From Competibacteraceae bacterium UBA2788 (lineage in GTDB: Bacteria > Pseudomonadota > Gammaproteobacteria > Competibacterales > Competibacteraceae): 13,141 bases of DNA. The stretch covers positions 1 to 13,141 of the forward strand of contig DEHY01000070.1 of NCBI GenBank assembly GCA_002352185.1, written 5' to 3'. Below are positions 1 through 6,976 of this stretch, in pieces (the first letter of the stretch is position 1; every line of letters starts with the position of its first letter). The notes beneath the pieces were generated by a model. It saw nothing but the letters and a program-made list of their open reading frames with translations. It was not told the DNA's origin and ran no database searches. The position numbers and the translations under genes are program-made.

Positions 1-23
1 CAGATTATGCAGGCTGAGCAAGG

Positions 24-1322
24 TCATGGATGGGATACTGCGTCAGGATCTGTCAGAAGAGAGACCTGCTTTGGCCGCACGGCCTGCCACTGATAGCGAA
101 CCGGCTTGCTGAGCTTGATCGCCTGTCCTTCCGCCATGGCGCGTTTCAACCAAGCGTGCAATTGCGGTTTGCTAATTTCGAGACCGGTCAGCAGTTCCTG
201 ATCAGTGATCGGGGTCTTTGCGGTCAAGGTTCGCAACCGACGCAAAAACAATTGATAAAAACTCAGACTGTCCAGAAGGGCGTCCGCCACCAGAGAGGTT
301 GTTGCACCCGGCGTCAGCGCGGCTGGCGCGGGTTCGGCGATCAAGTCCAGCGTCGACTCAACCCCAAGCCTTGCATCCCGAGTACTAGCCGTCGCACTTT
401 CCCAAACCAACAAAGTTGCCAAATCACCGGGTTCTTCCGGCAACTCGCGCCCTCCACGCCGGATCAATTCGACATTGCCGGATGCGGGATCGGGATGCGG
501 TTTGACCCACAGCGACGTCCAGCCGTGCTTGAGATTTTCCACCGCGCCGTTCCAGGTGCCACCCCGCTCCCGGTCCACCGCAATAACGATGGCGGCATCG
601 GCCAGGCAGTAGATGTATTTGTTGCGGGCCATGGCGTTACCCACCTCGAAACCCGATTCCGGGTTGAAGGGTGATAGCAGCGCCAAGTTGCCGCTGATCA
701 GTCCTGGGCGGAATTTAGCCGAGGTGGCGGCGCGCAATAGACTGTCGGCGAGAACCCCAATCGCCGTGCCTTCCTGCGCCAGCGCACCCAGCATCGCCGT
801 TTCATCCACACCCCGCGCTCCGCCGGAAATAATCGATAAGCCCTGTACTGCCGCTGCTCCGCCAAAACGGGCGGTCAGCGTCAGATCACCCTGGCTGGCG
901 TGGCGCGAACCGATCACCGCAATCCCGCCCCGATCCAGCAACCGGCGGTTGCCGCACCCGAACAGCACCGGTGGCGAATCGACCTGAAGCTGTCTCTTCA
1001 ACCGTCCGGGATAGTCGGCATCCGCCCGAATCAGAATCCACAGGCCGGCGCGCTGCCACTTTTCCACCGCCAGTCCCAAGGCGCCGGCGCGATTCAGCAG
1101 TGCCTGAATGCGTTCCAGGGTTACGGTGCGATCCAGCCAGCCGTCAAGTAACGGGGCGAGATCGTCGCGTAGCAACCTTTCCGGAGTGATCCCGCGTTCC
1201 TTCAACCAGCGAGCAAAGCGCCCCCATTCGGTCGGCGACAAGGGGCGCGGTTCACTTTGGGCAGGTCGGGCAAGATAAGCGGTTAATAATAAAACCGCCT
1301 GGGCTTGAGCGTGCAAATCCAT
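24..1322 (-). CDS. rqlI: DprA-like protein, RqlI/PsyrA-type antitoxin of a RecQ-like helicase module
   Basis: A 432-residue protein with a DprA/Smf-like Rossmann domain in the middle. Seen: an AVIGSRHAS strand-turn near residue 135, an IISGGARGVDETA nucleotide-binding segment near 165, and the MARNKYIYCLADAAIVI segment near 230 that corresponds to the RNR...L region of DprA. The N-terminal ~110 residues are helical. The last ~70 residues resemble a winged helix (SFYQLFLRRL to YQWQA). The ATG at 1322 is chosen because it lies 1 nt after the rqlH stop and 8 nt from a GGTGGGGA ribosome site; the longer reading from a GTG at 1379 would overlap rqlH by 56 nt. Known: in E. coli RqlI restrains the genotoxic RecQ-like helicase RqlH, and PsyrA is the antitoxin of PsyrTA. 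Inferred: this protein controls the helicase encoded just upstream. A housekeeping competence DprA is less likely given the partner. Confidence 0.85.
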   Translation of the reverse strand: MDLHAQAQAVLLLTAYLARPAQSEPRPLSPTEWGRFARWLKERGITPERLLRDDLAPLLDGWLDRTVTLERIQALLNRAGALGLAVEKWQRAGLWILIRADADYPGRLKRQLQVDSPPVLFGCGNRRLLDRGGIAVIGSRHASQGDLTLTARFGGAAAVQGLSIISGGARGVDETAMLGALAQEGTAIGVLADSLLRAATSAKFRPGLISGNLALLSPFNPESGFEVGNAMARNKYIYCLADAAIVIAVDRERGGTWNGAVENLKHGWTSLWVKPHPDPASGNVELIRRGGRELPEEPGDLATLLVWESATASTRDARLGVESTLDLIAEPAPAALTPGATTSLVADALLDSLSFYQLFLRRLRTLTAKTPITDQELLTGLEISKPQLHAWLKRAMAEGQAIKLSKPVRYQWQAVRPKQVSLLTDPDAVSHP

Positions 1323-1323
1323 G

Positions 1324-3450
1324 TCAATAATCCCCACCGCCAGCGGTGGTCGCCAGCGCCACCGGCCATACTGGCCCACTCCCCGCCTGTCGCAACAGGG
1401 CCGCCACGACCGTCAAGGTCCAGGTCGAATCCACCATATCATCCACCAGCAACACCGGCCCGGTCGGGATAGCAGTGCCCACCGCAAACGCGCCATCGAG
1501 GTTGCGACATTGGTGGTAACGATTCTGCTGAAATTTTTGGGGCTGATTGTTCTGTACCTTGATAACGGCAGATACGAACGGCAACCGCAGCCGGGCGGCC
1601 AGACGGCGGGCGAAATCCGGCACCAGAACAGGATGGTTGCGGGACGGGACGCAGGTGACCCATGTCGGCGGGGGGTCGGGACGCCAGCGTTGCCCGATCA
1701 TCTCGGCCATGGCGTCCACCAACTCGTCGCGGAAATGGCCGGCCCGTTTGTCCTCGGCCACCCATCGCCCCCAACCGGCATCGCCCCAGCGCGCCAACAC
1801 CCGCCCGGTTTCGGCCTGCCTATCCGCTTTCAGGTTGCCCTGAAACGGATAAACGGTGAAAGCGCCTTTGGCTACCTGCTTTTTGCACTCCAGCGGCAGC
1901 TCGGAATGCTGAAGATAGCGCGCCGCCTCCAGCGCCAGGGTCCGCGAGAAACTCTCCCCGACCACCGGTTGCCCCAGACACCGGGCGCAGCGGCCGCACG
2001 GTTGCGGGTTTTCGTCGTCCAGCGCCGTGGCGAGAAAGCGCATCAGGCAATTCGGGCTATCGATATACGCCTGGACTTCGCGCCACTCCTGCTCGCGCTG
2101 CCAGGTCAGACGCTGGATGCGCTCGTGATCCAGGCGATAGGCCACCGGGGTGCGCCGCCAGCGGGAACCGTCCTTGATAACCGGCGCCGGATTTTCAACA
2201 CTCAGGAATTTCAAAACGTACTCGATCTGCTTGCTTCGTCTGAGATTGACTACTGCTTCCAGCTCGATAACCGTCAGGCCATCAGACTGGCCCAGCGCGT
2301 GCAGAATTGCGTTAACCTGAGTCTCATCGGGAAAGGCGCTCTGGCGGAAAAAGTCGTGAATTTCAGCATCCTCCTGTCCTGCCAGCAAAATCCCCACCGC
2401 ATAGGCAATGGCGCGACCGGCACGACCGACCTGTTGGTAGTAGGCAATGATGGAACCGGGCGCCTGATAGTGAACGACGAAACCCAAATCCGGCTTGTCA
2501 TAGCCCATGCCCAGCGCCGTGGTCGCCACCAGCGCCTTAATCTGGTTGGTCAGCAATAAGGTTTCCAGATGTTGCCGGTAGGCGTTGGCGTCTGTGAAAC
2601 CCTCGGCCACGCTATCGCTGTGATAGGCGCGGGCTGAAATACCATTCTGGTTCAGCCAGTCGGCCACCTGTTCGGCATCCCGACGAGTCAAGGTATATAC
2701 AATGCCGGTACCGGGCAGTTCCGGCAGATGTTCCGCCAGCCAAGCCAGTCGCGCCGCCTGATCGGGCAAGCGCAAGGTTTGCAAGGCTAGGGTTTCGCGC
2801 ATCAGCGAGCCGCGCTGGATATTGATATGGCCCAACTGCTGCCCAATATCGGTCAACACCCGGTTATTGGCGGTCGCCGTAGTTCCCAATACCGGCATGT
2901 TGGGCGGCATTCGCCGCAATACATTAACCAGGCGGCGATAATCCGGGCGGAAATCATGACCCCAGTCGGAAATGCAATGGGCCTCATCCACCACCAGCAG
3001 ACCGAGCCGCTGAGTAATCGGCAACAGCACAGTACGCACGAATTCATCATTCGCCAGGCGCTCGGGGGAAATCAATACTGCATCAGCTTCATCGTTCAGA
3101 ATGGCGCACGTGAGCGGCGACCAGTCGCTGCGGTTGGCGGAATTGATGGTCAGCGCCCGGACGCCCAGTCGCTCAGCAGCTTCGATCTGATTACGCATCA
3201 GGGCCAGCAACGGCGAGACAATCAGAGTCGGTCCCAACCCTCGGTCCCGCAACAGGCGAGCTGCGATGAAATACACCATGCTCTTGCCCCAACCGGTGCG
3301 CTGCACTACCAGCAATTTCTCTCGACGGTTAACCAAAGCGTTAATTGCTTCCCACTGGCCGGGGTGGAAATCAGCGAGGGGTTGCGCGAGCGCCTGACGT
3401 AACCGTTGGAGAGCAAGCTGACGTTGGTTTTGGGGGTGCGAATCAGTCAT
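1324..3450 (-). CDS. rqlH: RecQ-like DNA helicase with C-terminal phosphoribosyltransferase domain (RqlH/PsyrT type)
   Basis: A 708-residue superfamily 2 helicase. Seen: motif I TGWGKS (52-57), DEAH box (155-158) followed by the RecQ aromatic-rich loop SDWGHDFRP (161-169), motif III TTATA (190-194), and motif VI QQVGRAGR (339-346). Four cysteines spaced C-X16-C-X2-C-X2-C (468-491) match the RecQ zinc-binding subdomain. No HRDC domain is visible. Instead residues ~595-705 form a phosphoribosyltransferase-like domain with VLLVDDMVDSTWT (666-678) in the position of the PRPP loop. This helicase-PRTase architecture is that of RqlH of extraintestinal E. coli and PsyrT of Pseudomonas syringae, the toxic partner of a DprA-like protein. 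The ATG at 3450 has GGAG 8 nt upstream. It begins 24 nt after the livM stop, so it is probably read through from the liv genes. A housekeeping RecQ is unlikely given the PRTase tail and the partner. Confidence 0.9.
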   Translation of the reverse strand: MTDSHPQNQRQLALQRLRQALAQPLADFHPGQWEAINALVNRREKLLVVQRTGWGKSMVYFIAARLLRDRGLGPTLIVSPLLALMRNQIEAAERLGVRALTINSANRSDWSPLTCAILNDEADAVLISPERLANDEFVRTVLLPITQRLGLLVVDEAHCISDWGHDFRPDYRRLVNVLRRMPPNMPVLGTTATANNRVLTDIGQQLGHINIQRGSLMRETLALQTLRLPDQAARLAWLAEHLPELPGTGIVYTLTRRDAEQVADWLNQNGISARAYHSDSVAEGFTDANAYRQHLETLLLTNQIKALVATTALGMGYDKPDLGFVVHYQAPGSIIAYYQQVGRAGRAIAYAVGILLAGQEDAEIHDFFRQSAFPDETQVNAILHALGQSDGLTVIELEAVVNLRRSKQIEYVLKFLSVENPAPVIKDGSRWRRTPVAYRLDHERIQRLTWQREQEWREVQAYIDSPNCLMRFLATALDDENPQPCGRCARCLGQPVVGESFSRTLALEAARYLQHSELPLECKKQVAKGAFTVYPFQGNLKADRQAETGRVLARWGDAGWGRWVAEDKRAGHFRDELVDAMAEMIGQRWRPDPPPTWVTCVPSRNHPVLVPDFARRLAARLRLPFVSAVIKVQNNQPQKFQQNRYHQCRNLDGAFAVGTAIPTGPVLLVDDMVDSTWTLTVVAALLRQAGSGPVWPVALATTAGGGDY
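1331..1338 (-). promoter_or_regulatory. Ribosome binding site that sets the rqlI start
   Basis: On the minus strand GGTGGGGA lies 8 nt before the ATG at 1322, inside the last codons of rqlH. The arrangement GGGGA, TGA stop of rqlH, one C, then ATG indicates translational coupling of the two proteins and supports the shorter start over the GTG at 1379. Confidence 0.6.
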
Positions 3451-3474: not shown

Positions 3475-4401
3475 CTATCCAAACCGCCTTCCCCTTGCCG
3501 ACAGCAATCCCTGTGGCCGGACCACCATCATCACCATCATCACCAGCCCGAACACCAGCATTCGCGCACTGGAAAATTCCCGGAACAGTTCCGGCAGACC
3601 GATGACCAGAAACGCGGCCAGCAACACTCCGGGAATACTGCCTGCCCCGCCGAGAATCACGATCATGAACAGCACCACCGATTCCCAGAAGCTGAACGAC
3701 TCCGGCGAAATAATGGTCATCTTGGCGGCGAACAGACAGCCCGCCATGCCCGCCCAGAATGCGCCCAGGCCAAATGCCGCCAATTTGTAGTACGCGGTAT
3801 TGATGCCGCTGCCTTCCGCCGCTACGGCATCCTCGCGCAAATAATTCAGCGCCCGCCCAAACCGCGACTGCTTGAGCCGCAGAAACAGGAAAATAGTTAG
3901 TCCAACAAAGCCCCAGATCAAATAAAAAAATTGTTGCGGCTGGCGAATAACGAAACCAAAGAAATTCGGGCGGCTGATGCCGAAAATGCCGTTGGCCCCG
4001 CCGGTGATTCCGAACACGTCATTAACCAGGGCGATGCGGACGATTTCGCCAACGCCAATGGTGACAATCAGCAGATAATCGCCGCGCAAATGCACGACGG
4101 GCCGCGCCACCGCCAGCGCAAACAGTCCGGCAACCAGCCCGCTCAGCGGCAGCGTCCACAAGATTGGAATTTGATAACGGGTATTGAGAATCGCAGCCGT
4201 GTATGCGCCCATTGCATAGAACGCGGCATGGCCCATGTTGAACAGCCCCGCCTCGCCCAGAATCAGGTTGAGACCAAGCGCAAGCAATGCGTACAAGCCT
4301 ACGCTATTCAGCACGTCCACCCAGTAAGCGTTGAGCAGCAGCGGCGCAACCATCAGCAACGCGGCGCACAGGCCCGCAATCCACCCATCAGTGCGGTTCA
4401 T
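3475..4401 (-). CDS. livM: Branched-chain amino acid ABC transporter permease, LivM type
   Basis: A 308-residue inner-membrane permease of the LivM family. About eight to nine hydrophobic segments are visible, starting with GLCAALLMVAPLLLNAYW. Family signatures seen: LNLILGEAGLFNMGHAAFYAMGAY near residue 45-68, and LRGDYLLIVTIGVGEIVRI near 105-123. The ATG at 4401 overlaps the livH stop as ATGA, which fits the LivM N-terminus; an ORF extending upstream to 4470 would add residues that are only the out-of-frame end of livH. Known: LivH and LivM form the membrane channel of the high-affinity Leu/Ile/Val importer with ATPases LivG and LivF and a periplasmic binding protein. The ATPase genes do not follow livM here; the next gene is the RecQ-like helicase. 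The exact substrate cannot be read from sequence; related systems import amides, urea or other amino acids. Confidence 0.9.
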   Translation of the reverse strand: MNRTDGWIAGLCAALLMVAPLLLNAYWVDVLNSVGLYALLALGLNLILGEAGLFNMGHAAFYAMGAYTAAILNTRYQIPILWTLPLSGLVAGLFALAVARPVVHLRGDYLLIVTIGVGEIVRIALVNDVFGITGGANGIFGISRPNFFGFVIRQPQQFFYLIWGFVGLTIFLFLRLKQSRFGRALNYLREDAVAAEGSGINTAYYKLAAFGLGAFWAGMAGCLFAAKMTIISPESFSFWESVVLFMIVILGGAGSIPGVLLAAFLVIGLPELFREFSSARMLVFGLVMMVMMVVRPQGLLSARGRRFG

Positions 4402-5303
4402 ACTTTGTCCGCCACCCGCTCGCCGAGCAGGCCGGTGGGGCGCACCATCAGAATCAGGATCAGTACGCAAAACGCAATCGCATCCTTCCAGGCGATGGAG
4501 AGGTAGGCTGCACCCATGGCTTCAATCACGCCCAGCAGCAGGCCGCCGACCATCGCGCCGGGAATGTTGCCGATGCCGCCGAGAATCGCAGCGGTGAACG
4601 CCTTCATGCCGTAGATCCAGCCCATGGTGAAATTGATCTGGCCGTAATACAGCCCGATCATCAATCCCGCTGCGCCGCCCAGCGCCGGCCCCACCAGGAA
4701 CACCAGCAGAATCACCCGGTTGACGTCAATACCCATCAGCCGCGCCGCGCCCTGATCAATCGCCGCCGCACGGATGGCGGCGCCGATCCGGGTTTTCTGA
4801 ATAAACAGGTACAGCGCGATCATCATCAGCACCGAGGCCAGCACAATCAGCACCCGCATCAATGGGATATAGAAACCGAACAGATCAAGCGTCGCCGTCG
4901 GCAATACCCCGTCGGGGTACACCTGAAAGCGCGCGCCGTAAATCAGCATCAGGGTGTTTTGCAGAAAGATGGAAGCGCCCAGCGCCGACACCACGGCGGA
5001 TAGTCGCGGCGATTCGCGCAAGGGCCGGTAGGCGGCCCGTTCCAGAATCGCGCCCAGCACCGCCACCAGACCCATCACCATCAGCACCAAAACCAGTACG
5101 CCCAGCGCGAACCCCAGCCGGTCCGTCAGCGCCAGCGAAGTGAGCAGGGTCAGGCCCAGATAGGCGCCGTAGGTGAACAAGTCGCCGTGAGCAAAGTTGA
5201 TGAGCTTGAGTACGCCATAAACCATGGTGTAGCCCAAAGCGATCAGCGCATAAATGCCGCCGACGGCCAGGCCATTCGTGAGTTGCTGGAGGAATTCTTC
5301 CAC
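4398..5303 (-). CDS. livH: Branched-chain amino acid ABC transporter permease, LivH type
   Basis: A 301-residue inner-membrane permease. Seen: FLQQLTNGLAVGGIYALIALGYTMVYGVLKLINFAHGD at the N-terminus, which is the standard LivH opening, and the cytoplasmic coupling loop TRIGAAIRAAAIDQGAARLMGID in the second half. Length agrees with LivH proteins of about 290-310 residues. The start is uncertain: the frame is open up to a TTG at 5354, but that would overlap hicA; the GTG at 5303 gives a family-length protein and lies 14 nt after the hicA stop. A TTG at 5321 overlapping the hicA TGA is another option. No clear Shine-Dalgarno is present for any of these, so translation may depend on ribosomes finishing hicA. 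The 3' end overlaps livM by 4 nt (ATGA). Confidence 0.88.
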   Translation of the reverse strand: MEEFLQQLTNGLAVGGIYALIALGYTMVYGVLKLINFAHGDLFTYGAYLGLTLLTSLALTDRLGFALGVLVLVLMVMGLVAVLGAILERAAYRPLRESPRLSAVVSALGASIFLQNTLMLIYGARFQVYPDGVLPTATLDLFGFYIPLMRVLIVLASVLMMIALYLFIQKTRIGAAIRAAAIDQGAARLMGIDVNRVILLVFLVGPALGGAAGLMIGLYYGQINFTMGWIYGMKAFTAAILGGIGNIPGAMVGGLLLGVIEAMGAAYLSIAWKDAIAFCVLILILMVRPTGLLGERVADKV

Positions 5304-5317
5304 GAGATTGTCGAACT

Positions 5318-5509
5318 TCAAGCCGAAGGAAAAGGAACGCCGAGTTGCCTGCAAAGACTCGCTACCGTGAAATCCGCAATCTCACGATGACGAGGAATGG
5401 AAGCGCGGCGGTTATTGGCTGGATTCTCCCAGATGGAATGCTCGCCACCTTCCCGCAATAGCCGGCAGCCGTACTGACTCAAATGGCGCAATACATCACG
5501 CCGTTTCAC
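5318..5509 (-). CDS. hicA: HicA-family mRNA interferase toxin
   Basis: A 63-residue protein matching the HicA family over its whole length. Seen: MKRRDVLRHLSQYGCRLLRE, then GGEHSIWENP with the single histidine (H24) that is catalytic in HicA toxins, then IPRHREIADFTVASLCRQLG, the typical end of the double-stranded-RNA-binding-like fold. The start codon is GTG at 5509, overlapping the hicB stop as GTGA, so the toxin is translationally coupled to the antitoxin. Known: HicA cleaves mRNAs in the cell and is blocked by HicB. The frame is intact and the key histidine is present, so the toxin looks functional. It lies between hicB and livH, inside the liv gene cluster, with only 14 nt to the proposed livH start. 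Confidence 0.88.
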   Translation of the reverse strand: MKRRDVLRHLSQYGCRLLREGGEHSIWENPANNRRASIPRHREIADFTVASLCRQLGVPFPSA

Positions 5510-5790
5510 GCAGCTGTAGTTTCCGGGACTATATGCACATGAGAGGCTGCGGTCAGCAAAAGATGAATCGGTTCTTCCAAATCCGCTTCAGGGTGAGTGC
5601 AAGCAGGTTCAGGGCGCGGTAACGATTCACCTTGCAACAGACAGACTTCCGCCATATCCACCAGCGCGCTCGCCAATAACCGGCGCGCTTCCGGGAGATC
5701 CTGGGCACAGGTCATCACACCGGGAAAATCCAGCACCTCGGCATGAACTCCAGCATCGAGAAACTTGTACATCGCTTGGTAAGTCAGCAT
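5506..5790 (-). CDS. hicB: HicB-family antitoxin
   Basis: A 94-residue protein with the partial RNase H-like fold of HicB. Seen: YKFLDAGVHAEVLDFPGVMTCAQDLPEARRLLASAL near residues 8-43, where DFPGV and the following acidic/alanine-rich helix match the family (usual form: FPDLPGC...A...A...). There is no obvious C-terminal ribbon-helix-helix or HTH domain, so this is a short HicB, and autoregulation may differ from that of the longer forms. The ATG at 5790 is chosen because the upstream extension (to 5931) runs through the end of the livK gene and the hairpin at 5809-5840. An ATG at 5772 is also possible. No strong Shine-Dalgarno is seen; GGACGG lies just upstream. It precedes hicA with a 4-nt overlap, the reverse of the E. 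coli hicAB order but common in other hicBA loci. Confidence 0.82.
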   Translation of the reverse strand: MLTYQAMYKFLDAGVHAEVLDFPGVMTCAQDLPEARRLLASALVDMAEVCLLQGESLPRPEPACTHPEADLEEPIHLLLTAASHVHIVPETTAA

Positions 5791-5808
5791 GGCCGTCCGC
5801 GCAGTTAA

Positions 5809-5840
5809 GGCGGTTCTCCATAACAAACCGGAGAACCGCC
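5809..5840 (-). repeat. Perfect 11-bp inverted repeat (stem-loop) just after the livK stop
   Basis: GGCGGTTCTCC at 5809-5819 and GGAGAACCGCC at 5830-5840 form a perfect 11-bp stem with a 10-nt loop, starting 8 nt after the livK stop. On the minus strand it is followed by only two T residues, so it does not look like a complete Rho-independent terminator. Such hairpins after a binding-protein gene often protect the upstream mRNA from 3' exonucleases and lower expression of the following genes (established for other transport operons). Here it would separate high livK expression from hicBA and livHM. Confidence 0.7.
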
Positions 5841-5848
5841 GGTATTGA

Positions 5849-6976
5849 CTATTTCTGCAACACGAATTTTCCTTCAGCATCCACTTGGTAGACCCGATAG
5901 ACATCTCCTTCACGATCGCCCTTGGCGTCAAAGGAAATCGGGCCGCTCAGACCGGAAAAACTCTTGAGATCTTTGTGCAGATATTCAGCGATTTTGCCAC
6001 CCTCGGCGGATTTAGCGCCCGCCATGCCCGCTACCGCCACCCGGAAGCCATCACCGGCCAGCACCGCCCAGATCGAGGCCGGCGCTTCACCGTACTTCTT
6101 CTGATAATCCGCCAGAAACGCCCTGGCTTCCGGCGTATCCAAATCCTGCGGCACCGGCGGACTGAGAAAATAAAAGCCCTCGGCAGCTTCCTTGCCCGCG
6201 ATCTTGACCAAATCAGGGTTGTTGGTTGCATCGCCGCCGATGAACGGAACCTTCCAGTTCATTTCCTTCTTCTGCCGCAGCAACAGGCCCGCTTCGGGGT
6301 AATAGCCGGTGAACAGCACTACCTCGGGCTTGGCGCCCTTCAGTTTGGTCAGAATGGCGTTGTAGTCGCGCTCACCGGGGGTCAGGGCATCGAAAAACAC
6401 CACCTCCGTGCCTTTTTTCTTCAGCAGATCATTCGCTTCCTGAGCCAAACCCTTGGCGTAAGAGGTGCTGTCGTGCAGGATGGCGACCTTCTTGAAGCCC
6501 AGCTTCCCGATGGTTTGCGCCGCCATCCGACCCTGCTCATCATCGCGCGGCGCGGTACGGAAGAAGAGCTTGAAACCCTTCTCAGTCAGGCGGATCGCGG
6601 TAGAACCGTTGGCGATCTGCGGAATCCTGGCTTCGTCATAAATCGCCTGGCTGGCTTCAGTCACCGAGGAGCCGTAAGTGCCGACTACCGCCGCGACGCC
6701 TTGGGTCGTCAAGCGTTGCGCCGCCAATGAGGCGGTGCGTGGATCGCCGCCATCATCTTCGGTAATAACCTCGATTTTCCGGCCCAGAACGCCACCCTTG
6801 GCATTCTGCTGTTCGGCCAGTAATTCGACGATTTTTTTCATGCCCTGCCCTTCACTGGCCCAGGAACCGGTGAGCGGCGCCATCAGGCCAATCCTGACGG
6901 CGTCCGCCGCCTGCGCCATCCCGCCACCCAGCGCCAGACCTACCGCCGCGACCACCATCAATAATTTTTTGTTCAT
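5849..6976 (-). CDS. livK: Periplasmic branched-chain amino acid-binding protein, LivK/LivJ type
   Basis: A 375-residue solute-binding protein of the Leu/Ile/Val (peripla_BP_6) family. Seen: a signal peptide (MNKK, hydrophobic core to residue ~19, AQA cleavage site near residue 23), then AVRIGLMAPLTGSWASEGQGMKKIVELLAEQQN, the family's ligand-contact opening. Further family segments are VAAVVGTYGSSVTEASQAIYDEARIPQIANGS near residue 92 and VVLFTGYYPEAGLLLRQKKEMNW near 219. No lipobox cysteine is seen, so it is a free periplasmic protein. The ATG at 6976 has AAGGAG 8 nt upstream. It is the first liv gene of the minus-strand run and is separated from hicB by a stem-loop. Exact ligand is not certain: related proteins bind Leu, Ile, Val or other amino acids and amides. 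Confidence 0.9.
   Translation of the reverse strand: MNKKLLMVVAAVGLALGGGMAQAADAVRIGLMAPLTGSWASEGQGMKKIVELLAEQQNAKGGVLGRKIEVITEDDGGDPRTASLAAQRLTTQGVAAVVGTYGSSVTEASQAIYDEARIPQIANGSTAIRLTEKGFKLFFRTAPRDDEQGRMAAQTIGKLGFKKVAILHDSTSYAKGLAQEANDLLKKKGTEVVFFDALTPGERDYNAILTKLKGAKPEVVLFTGYYPEAGLLLRQKKEMNWKVPFIGGDATNNPDLVKIAGKEAAEGFYFLSPPVPQDLDTPEARAFLADYQKKYGEAPASIWAVLAGDGFRVAVAGMAGAKSAEGGKIAEYLHKDLKSFSGLSGPISFDAKGDREGDVYRVYQVDAEGKFVLQK

Follow-up and report, generated by a model that had tools for sequence, protein, structure and literature searches.

The window, by which we mean the whole 13,141-nt stretch analysed, begins at base 1 of its contig in a Contendobacter-like Competibacteraceae genome (3.2 Mb in 234 contigs) and contains an intact PsyrTA/RqlHI module in a livKHMGF operon, where it separates livM from livG. 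We interpret the module as a phosphoribosyltransferase (PRTase) toxin held by its partner PsyrA until DNA metabolism is disturbed, and give this reading a probability of roughly 0.8. Near protein relatives carry the names Candidatus Contendobacter, Contendibacter and Competibacter. Earlier publications describe the RqlHI/PsyrTA family, its toxicity and how it resembles ComFA/ComFC/DprA (PMC4670107, PMC5512222, PMC9122126); apparently new, within the scope of the open-licence literature, are the liv and Hsp70 sites with empty or decayed counterparts and the family-wide loop counts. A clean intact Competibacteraceae module, natural empty sites and a decayed copy together make gain and loss visible, and the PRPP-loop signature pinpoints the residues with which to decide between enzyme and sensor for the PRTase, the main question for this family.

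The psyrTA gene pair and its place in the liv operon

Both genes are encoded on the minus strand. psyrT (rqlH-type; 1324..3450) specifies a 708-aa RecQ-family helicase with a C-terminal PRTase, and psyrA (rqlI-type; 24..1322), directly downstream and separated from the psyrT stop by 1 nt, specifies a DprA-like partner, 432 aa long when read from the ATG at 1322; starting at the in-frame GTG at 1379 would add 19 residues. The original prediction, made from the DNA letters alone, had named a RqlHI/PsyrTA-type composition and proposed a search with defence-system profiles. That search identified both proteins as PsyrTA, with PsyrT matching PADLOC PDLC03928 over residues 9-704 of 708 (E 4.6e-299) and PsyrA matching PDLC03927 end to end (E 1.1e-147), and full-length matches of this strength rule out chance. 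The expected DprA-like gene 1 nt after the helicase is confirmed by ORF spacing, Pfam PF02481 and the PsyrA profile, and the expected RecQ motifs, zinc cysteines and PRTase-like end are all present (K56, DEAH, four Cys and LLVDDMVDSTWTL).

The helicase core (residues 26-376; 2323..3375, minus strand) is matched by TIGR01389, TIGR00614 and Pfam DEAD and Helicase_C, the matches running from residue 26 to 363 or 376. PsyrT falls far short of the RecQ equivalog TIGR01389 (263 bits, cut-off 640) and passes the broader subfamily model TIGR00614 (242 bits, cut-off 220), as a RecQ-family motor should. Among 93 distinct relatives, window included, the Walker A K56 is found in 91 and DEAH (155-158) in all, and QxxGRxGR at 339-346 is conserved. 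The zinc-binding cysteines form the motif C468-x16-C485-x2-C488-x2-C491 (1978..2049, minus strand). The motif has been lost in a well-supported PsyrT group of 16 loci from many phyla, among them L091 from the same host family as the window; two members of the group, L067 and L073, have Cys at 485 only.

The ComFC/ShosT-like PRTase domain occupies residues 515-708 (1327..1908, minus strand) and contains the PRPP loop at residues 667-679 (1414..1452, minus strand). Judged by alignment columns, the loop is nearly invariant: in 93 distinct rows, from which L014 and L032 (psyrT split in frame) and the partial L110 were left out, D670 is kept in 92, D671 in 92, D674 in 85, S675 in 90, W677 in 93 and T678 in 90. 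In 58 of 96 rows R, K, T or A stands in place of the usual loop Gly, and the invariant Trp follows. The predicted structure of the domain is nearest to ComFC and ShosT, in keeping with a ComFC fold; Foldseek alone placed APRT and PurF first, with ComFC first in a second look only, and a sequence-only PDB search with the PRTase profile matched PRPP synthetases, PurF and HPRT, ComFC not being among the matches.

PsyrA comprises a DprA Rossmann-type domain (residues 89-290; 453..1058, minus strand; PF02481, E 4.3e-36) and a C-terminal winged-helix-like unit (residues 354-414; 81..263, minus strand), and its model, predicted as a single chain like that of PsyrT, is nearest to DprA and ShosA. It misses the DprA equivalog TIGR00732 by far (84 bits, cut-off 191). 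Two longer relatives, P0216 (585 aa) and P0227 (600 aa), appear by eye to repeat the winged-helix-like unit about three times. Another, P0123, is identical to the window PsyrA to about residue 337 and then differs and ends earlier, as if frameshifted; the window psyrA reads through to 432.

Upstream, the livM ORF (3475..4470, minus strand; Pfam BPD_transp_2, with PRK11301 below its cut-off) stops 24 nt before the psyrT ATG. Downstream, the ATG of livG overlaps the psyrA stop (ATGA), and its first nine codons, MTLLSLHNL (1..27, minus strand), are in the window. The same overlap is found in a genome of the same genus (G006, locus L114), where the downstream ORF is a branched-chain amino-acid ABC ATPase and the order is livK, livH, livM, psyrT, psyrA, livG, Uma2, livF, EamA and adenylosuccinate lyase. 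The site is empty in G011, G017 and G018, livM being followed directly by livG. In four further genomes of the genus (G002, G004, G005 and G007) a different sequence, similar among the four, comes after livM, and the fetched stretch contains no livG. The site is a transporter operon, not a defence island, and is no sign of defence. A foreign base composition was considered and rejected, as GC is 60.6% in psyrT plus psyrA and 60.9% in the rest. Between livH and livK, a small ORF (5506-5931, minus strand) has a weak UPF0150-like match below cut-off, and its second half is conserved in several relatives.

Other insertion sites

In five of the nine PsyrT genomes (G004, G007, G018, G025 and G036) psyrTA is located between two Hsp70-like genes. 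The downstream gene matches Pfam HSP70, and over stretches the upstream gene shares 41-49% identity with it. This site is empty in G017 and G011, and G018 has psyrTA at the Hsp70 site and an empty liv site. In G005 (L186, G005:C19) it holds a decayed copy in which psyrT is reduced to residues 491-583 and psyrA to residues 83-425, so that the helicase core and PRPP loop are gone and most of psyrA is retained. The Hsp70-like genes of the window genome are on separate contigs, which makes the site unreadable there. Occupied, empty and decayed sites point to gain, loss or relocation of psyrTA within the family, where it sits inside co-directional gene groups. PsyrTA inside a liv or Hsp70 gene group was not found in the open-licence literature searched.

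Elsewhere, psyrTA occurs in type I restriction operons, flanked by hsdS and hsdR (L007, L013, L066 and L103, in Vibrio furnissii, Providencia heimbachae, Shewanella surugensis and an E. coli conjugative plasmid), with L008 and L009 having only short HsdM or HsdS remnants upstream. In two Pseudomonas and one Verrucomicrobia (L010, L012 and L037) its neighbours are a DUF1156 methylase-like gene on one side and a DUF499 gene on the other, with a remnant at L015. PADLOC matches among the flanks (E<=1e-10; 76 same-strand ORFs hand-picked from 140; among the matches listed, 25 of 248 models) were to single models for type I specificity, type I REase, HmaC and DUF499, with at most 4 members each. Tight co-directional flanks as a general rule were weakly supported: by rough ORF calling, which left out L014, L016, L032 and L103 and had no chance control, a same-strand neighbour lies within 60 nt upstream in 24 of 68 loci, downstream in 15 of 67 and on both sides in 8 of 61.

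These host sites (liv transporter, Hsp70-like pair, type I restriction and DUF1156/DUF499 system) and the peculiar PRPP loop, with its extra Asp and invariant Trp, allow a wider proposal, which we consider doubtful. PsyrTA would be a compact cassette that sits between co-directional operon genes with tight or overlapping junctions and makes its own expression depend on the operon around it; if a phage or a deletion shut off or removed that operon, toxin and antitoxin would fall out of balance, and the ComFC-derived PRTase, with a PRPP loop of its own, would act on purine metabolism.

Proposed mechanism and its alternatives

Of the known systems, PsyrTA of Pseudomonas syringae and RqlHI of E. 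coli share with the window gene order, helicase-PRTase fusion, DprA-like partner and PADLOC profiles, and the window PsyrT is 62.1% identical to that of an E. coli plasmid; the window copy differs in lying inside a liv operon. ShosTA also has a DprA-like partner, but ShosT (237 positions in the PADLOC model, 424 residues in the solved chain) is a PRTase toxin not known to carry a helicase, whereas the window PRTase is fused to a RecQ-family helicase. The helicase-PRTase fusion is shared with RqlH of Mycobacterium smegmatis, which is reported to occur without RqlI (PMC4670107).

In the mechanism we propose, the RecQ-type motor of PsyrT would bind DNA and move on it, and the ComFC/ShosT-like PRTase would bind PRPP and, if unrestrained, target the nucleotide pool, or nucleotides at DNA, with DNA damage, filamentation and SOS induction as the outcome. 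PsyrA, a DprA-like putative DNA-binding protein, would bind PsyrT and keep the PRTase inactive, the effector thus being held by PsyrA and also by the motor. When DNA metabolism is disturbed, for instance by phage, the PRTase would be released and the cell arrested or killed. PRTase-dependent toxicity, restraint by RqlI, physical interaction and ShosT chemistry are taken from published relatives; by analogy the window copy most likely acts likewise, with DNA disturbance as the trigger.

In E. coli, RqlH alone is reported to cause SOS induction, filamentation and growth inhibition, and RqlI to bind and restrain it (PMC4670107); the laboratory strain MG1655 is reported to have neither gene (PMC4670107). 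Without its PRTase, RqlH no longer inhibited growth or induced SOS (Russell and Mulvey 2015, PMC4670107); mutation of the DIVD quartet had the same effect, with a modest loss of viable cells remaining, and the PRTase on its own was not toxic (PMC4670107). The helicase mutants K49A and D148A showed more SOS induction and filamentation, and their cultures, of normal density, contained fewer viable cells (PMC4670107). The residues concerned correspond to K56, D155 and D671-M-V-D674 of the window PsyrT. The K49 and D148 numbering is exact in relatives L103 and L007, where the quartet starts at 674 and 663, respectively, so D663 of F11 is not pinned to one Asp. According to a review, ShosT acts as both phosphoribosyl transferase and pyrophosphatase and upsets purine metabolism, and ShosA binds DNA (PMC12593503). 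PsyrTA of strain NILS69 reportedly gave no detectable phage protection in its native host, and the expressing strain grew poorly (PMC12409345).

An unlikely alternative is that PsyrT and PsyrA are a DNA-repair or DNA-uptake helper, handling single-stranded DNA like ComFA (helicase), ComFC (PRTase) and DprA and toxic only when out of balance. The predicted folds nearest to ComFC and DprA, the published parallel (PMC4670107, PMC5512222), the reported interaction of ComFC and ComFA with DprA (PMC9005727, citing Diallo 2017) and the occurrence of partnerless PsyrT genes are consistent with such a role. However, the window genome also has ComF-like, DprA-like and RecQ-like genes by profile match, and full-length PsyrT is patchy, being found in 9 of 59 genomes (the window's own counted), unlike a housekeeping helper. 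Compared with the competence proteins, the window has a RecQ-type motor fused to its PRTase and another PRPP loop, DDMVDSTWT, which is not of the stand-alone ComF kind (DDxxTTGxT). Fifteen loci with ShosT hits were read by pattern; two (L154 and L162) gave no loop, and 12 of the other 13 have DDVxTTGxT, the loop of stand-alone ComF, L148 differing. The window genome's own ComF-like locus, L163, gave no PRPP loop by this pattern reading.

Rather less probable still is a PRTase that serves as a PRPP or nucleotide sensor and switches the helicase, which would then be the effector. ComFC binds PRPP and nucleotides, its physiological ligand being described as unsettled (PMC9005727), and the replaced loop Gly followed by an invariant Trp would suit a sensor. 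The acidic loop residues are nevertheless retained, the RqlH helicase mutants are no milder while the loop mutants are without growth inhibition and SOS induction (PMC4670107), and the related ShosT is reported as an enzyme (PMC12593503), all of which speaks against a sensor.

Pairing and distribution

The pairing was surveyed by scanning genome contigs for the best 80 of 587 PsyrT relatives, and at 76 of these 80 loci PsyrT is followed on its own strand by a match to the PsyrA profile, the weakest being L020 and L021 (86 and 103 bits). There is no PsyrA match at L026, L049 and L072, nor at L031, where the contig stops 87 nt past PsyrT. The survey ran closest-first, so paired copies are over-represented; published figures are 43.5% of strains with both genes and 55.3% with RqlH alone (Russell and Mulvey 2015, PMC4670107). 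That an ordinary RecQ and DprA are neighbours by accident, which for the original prediction would have shown as best matches to housekeeping RecQ and DprA or as a lack of conserved co-occurrence, deserves practically no credence and is already refuted: RecQ and DprA folds are common to both and TIGR00614 passes, but both equivalog cut-offs are missed, the PsyrT and PsyrA profiles match end to end, and the genes keep together in these best 80 relatives.

PsyrT distances and PsyrA distances rise together across 83 pairs (r 0.79; none of 999 permutations reached this), a value that leaves co-evolution and shared inheritance unseparated. Specific co-variation of PsyrA with the PRTase was not supported, the partial correlation being 0.25 given the helicase, against 0.41 for the helicase given the PRTase. 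The idea that partnerless PsyrT has a broken PRPP loop received a mixed answer and was not adopted. D674 is kept in 6 of 9 unpaired rows, so an intact loop does not need an adjacent PsyrA in every case; it is absent in three (Glu in L049, Gly in L107 and L109) and in 5 of 83 paired rows (Asn in L020, L021 and L088, Arg in L029, Gly in L067), giving a Fisher p of 0.03, uncorrected for kinship and with L031 also left out because its contig ends.

Eleven plasmid records have at least 80% PsyrT coverage, and of the seven fetched L103 is paired and L104-L109 are without a PsyrA match. A phage or prophage origin was rejected, since none of the 29 phage records matching reached 80% PsyrT coverage and PHROGs matches were partial. 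ShosTA in the host family was likewise set aside, as ShosT hits across the 59 genomes were weak (best 8.7e-11) and their loops mostly ComF-like. Many genomes of the family have RecQ-like ORFs of about 1180-1480 aa (682 in the window genome) that match PsyrT residues 7-490. In E. coli NZ_CP124405.1 (H55), the annotation places an IS3-like element inside the psyrTA match and also names a ComF family protein, as if the element had split psyrT.
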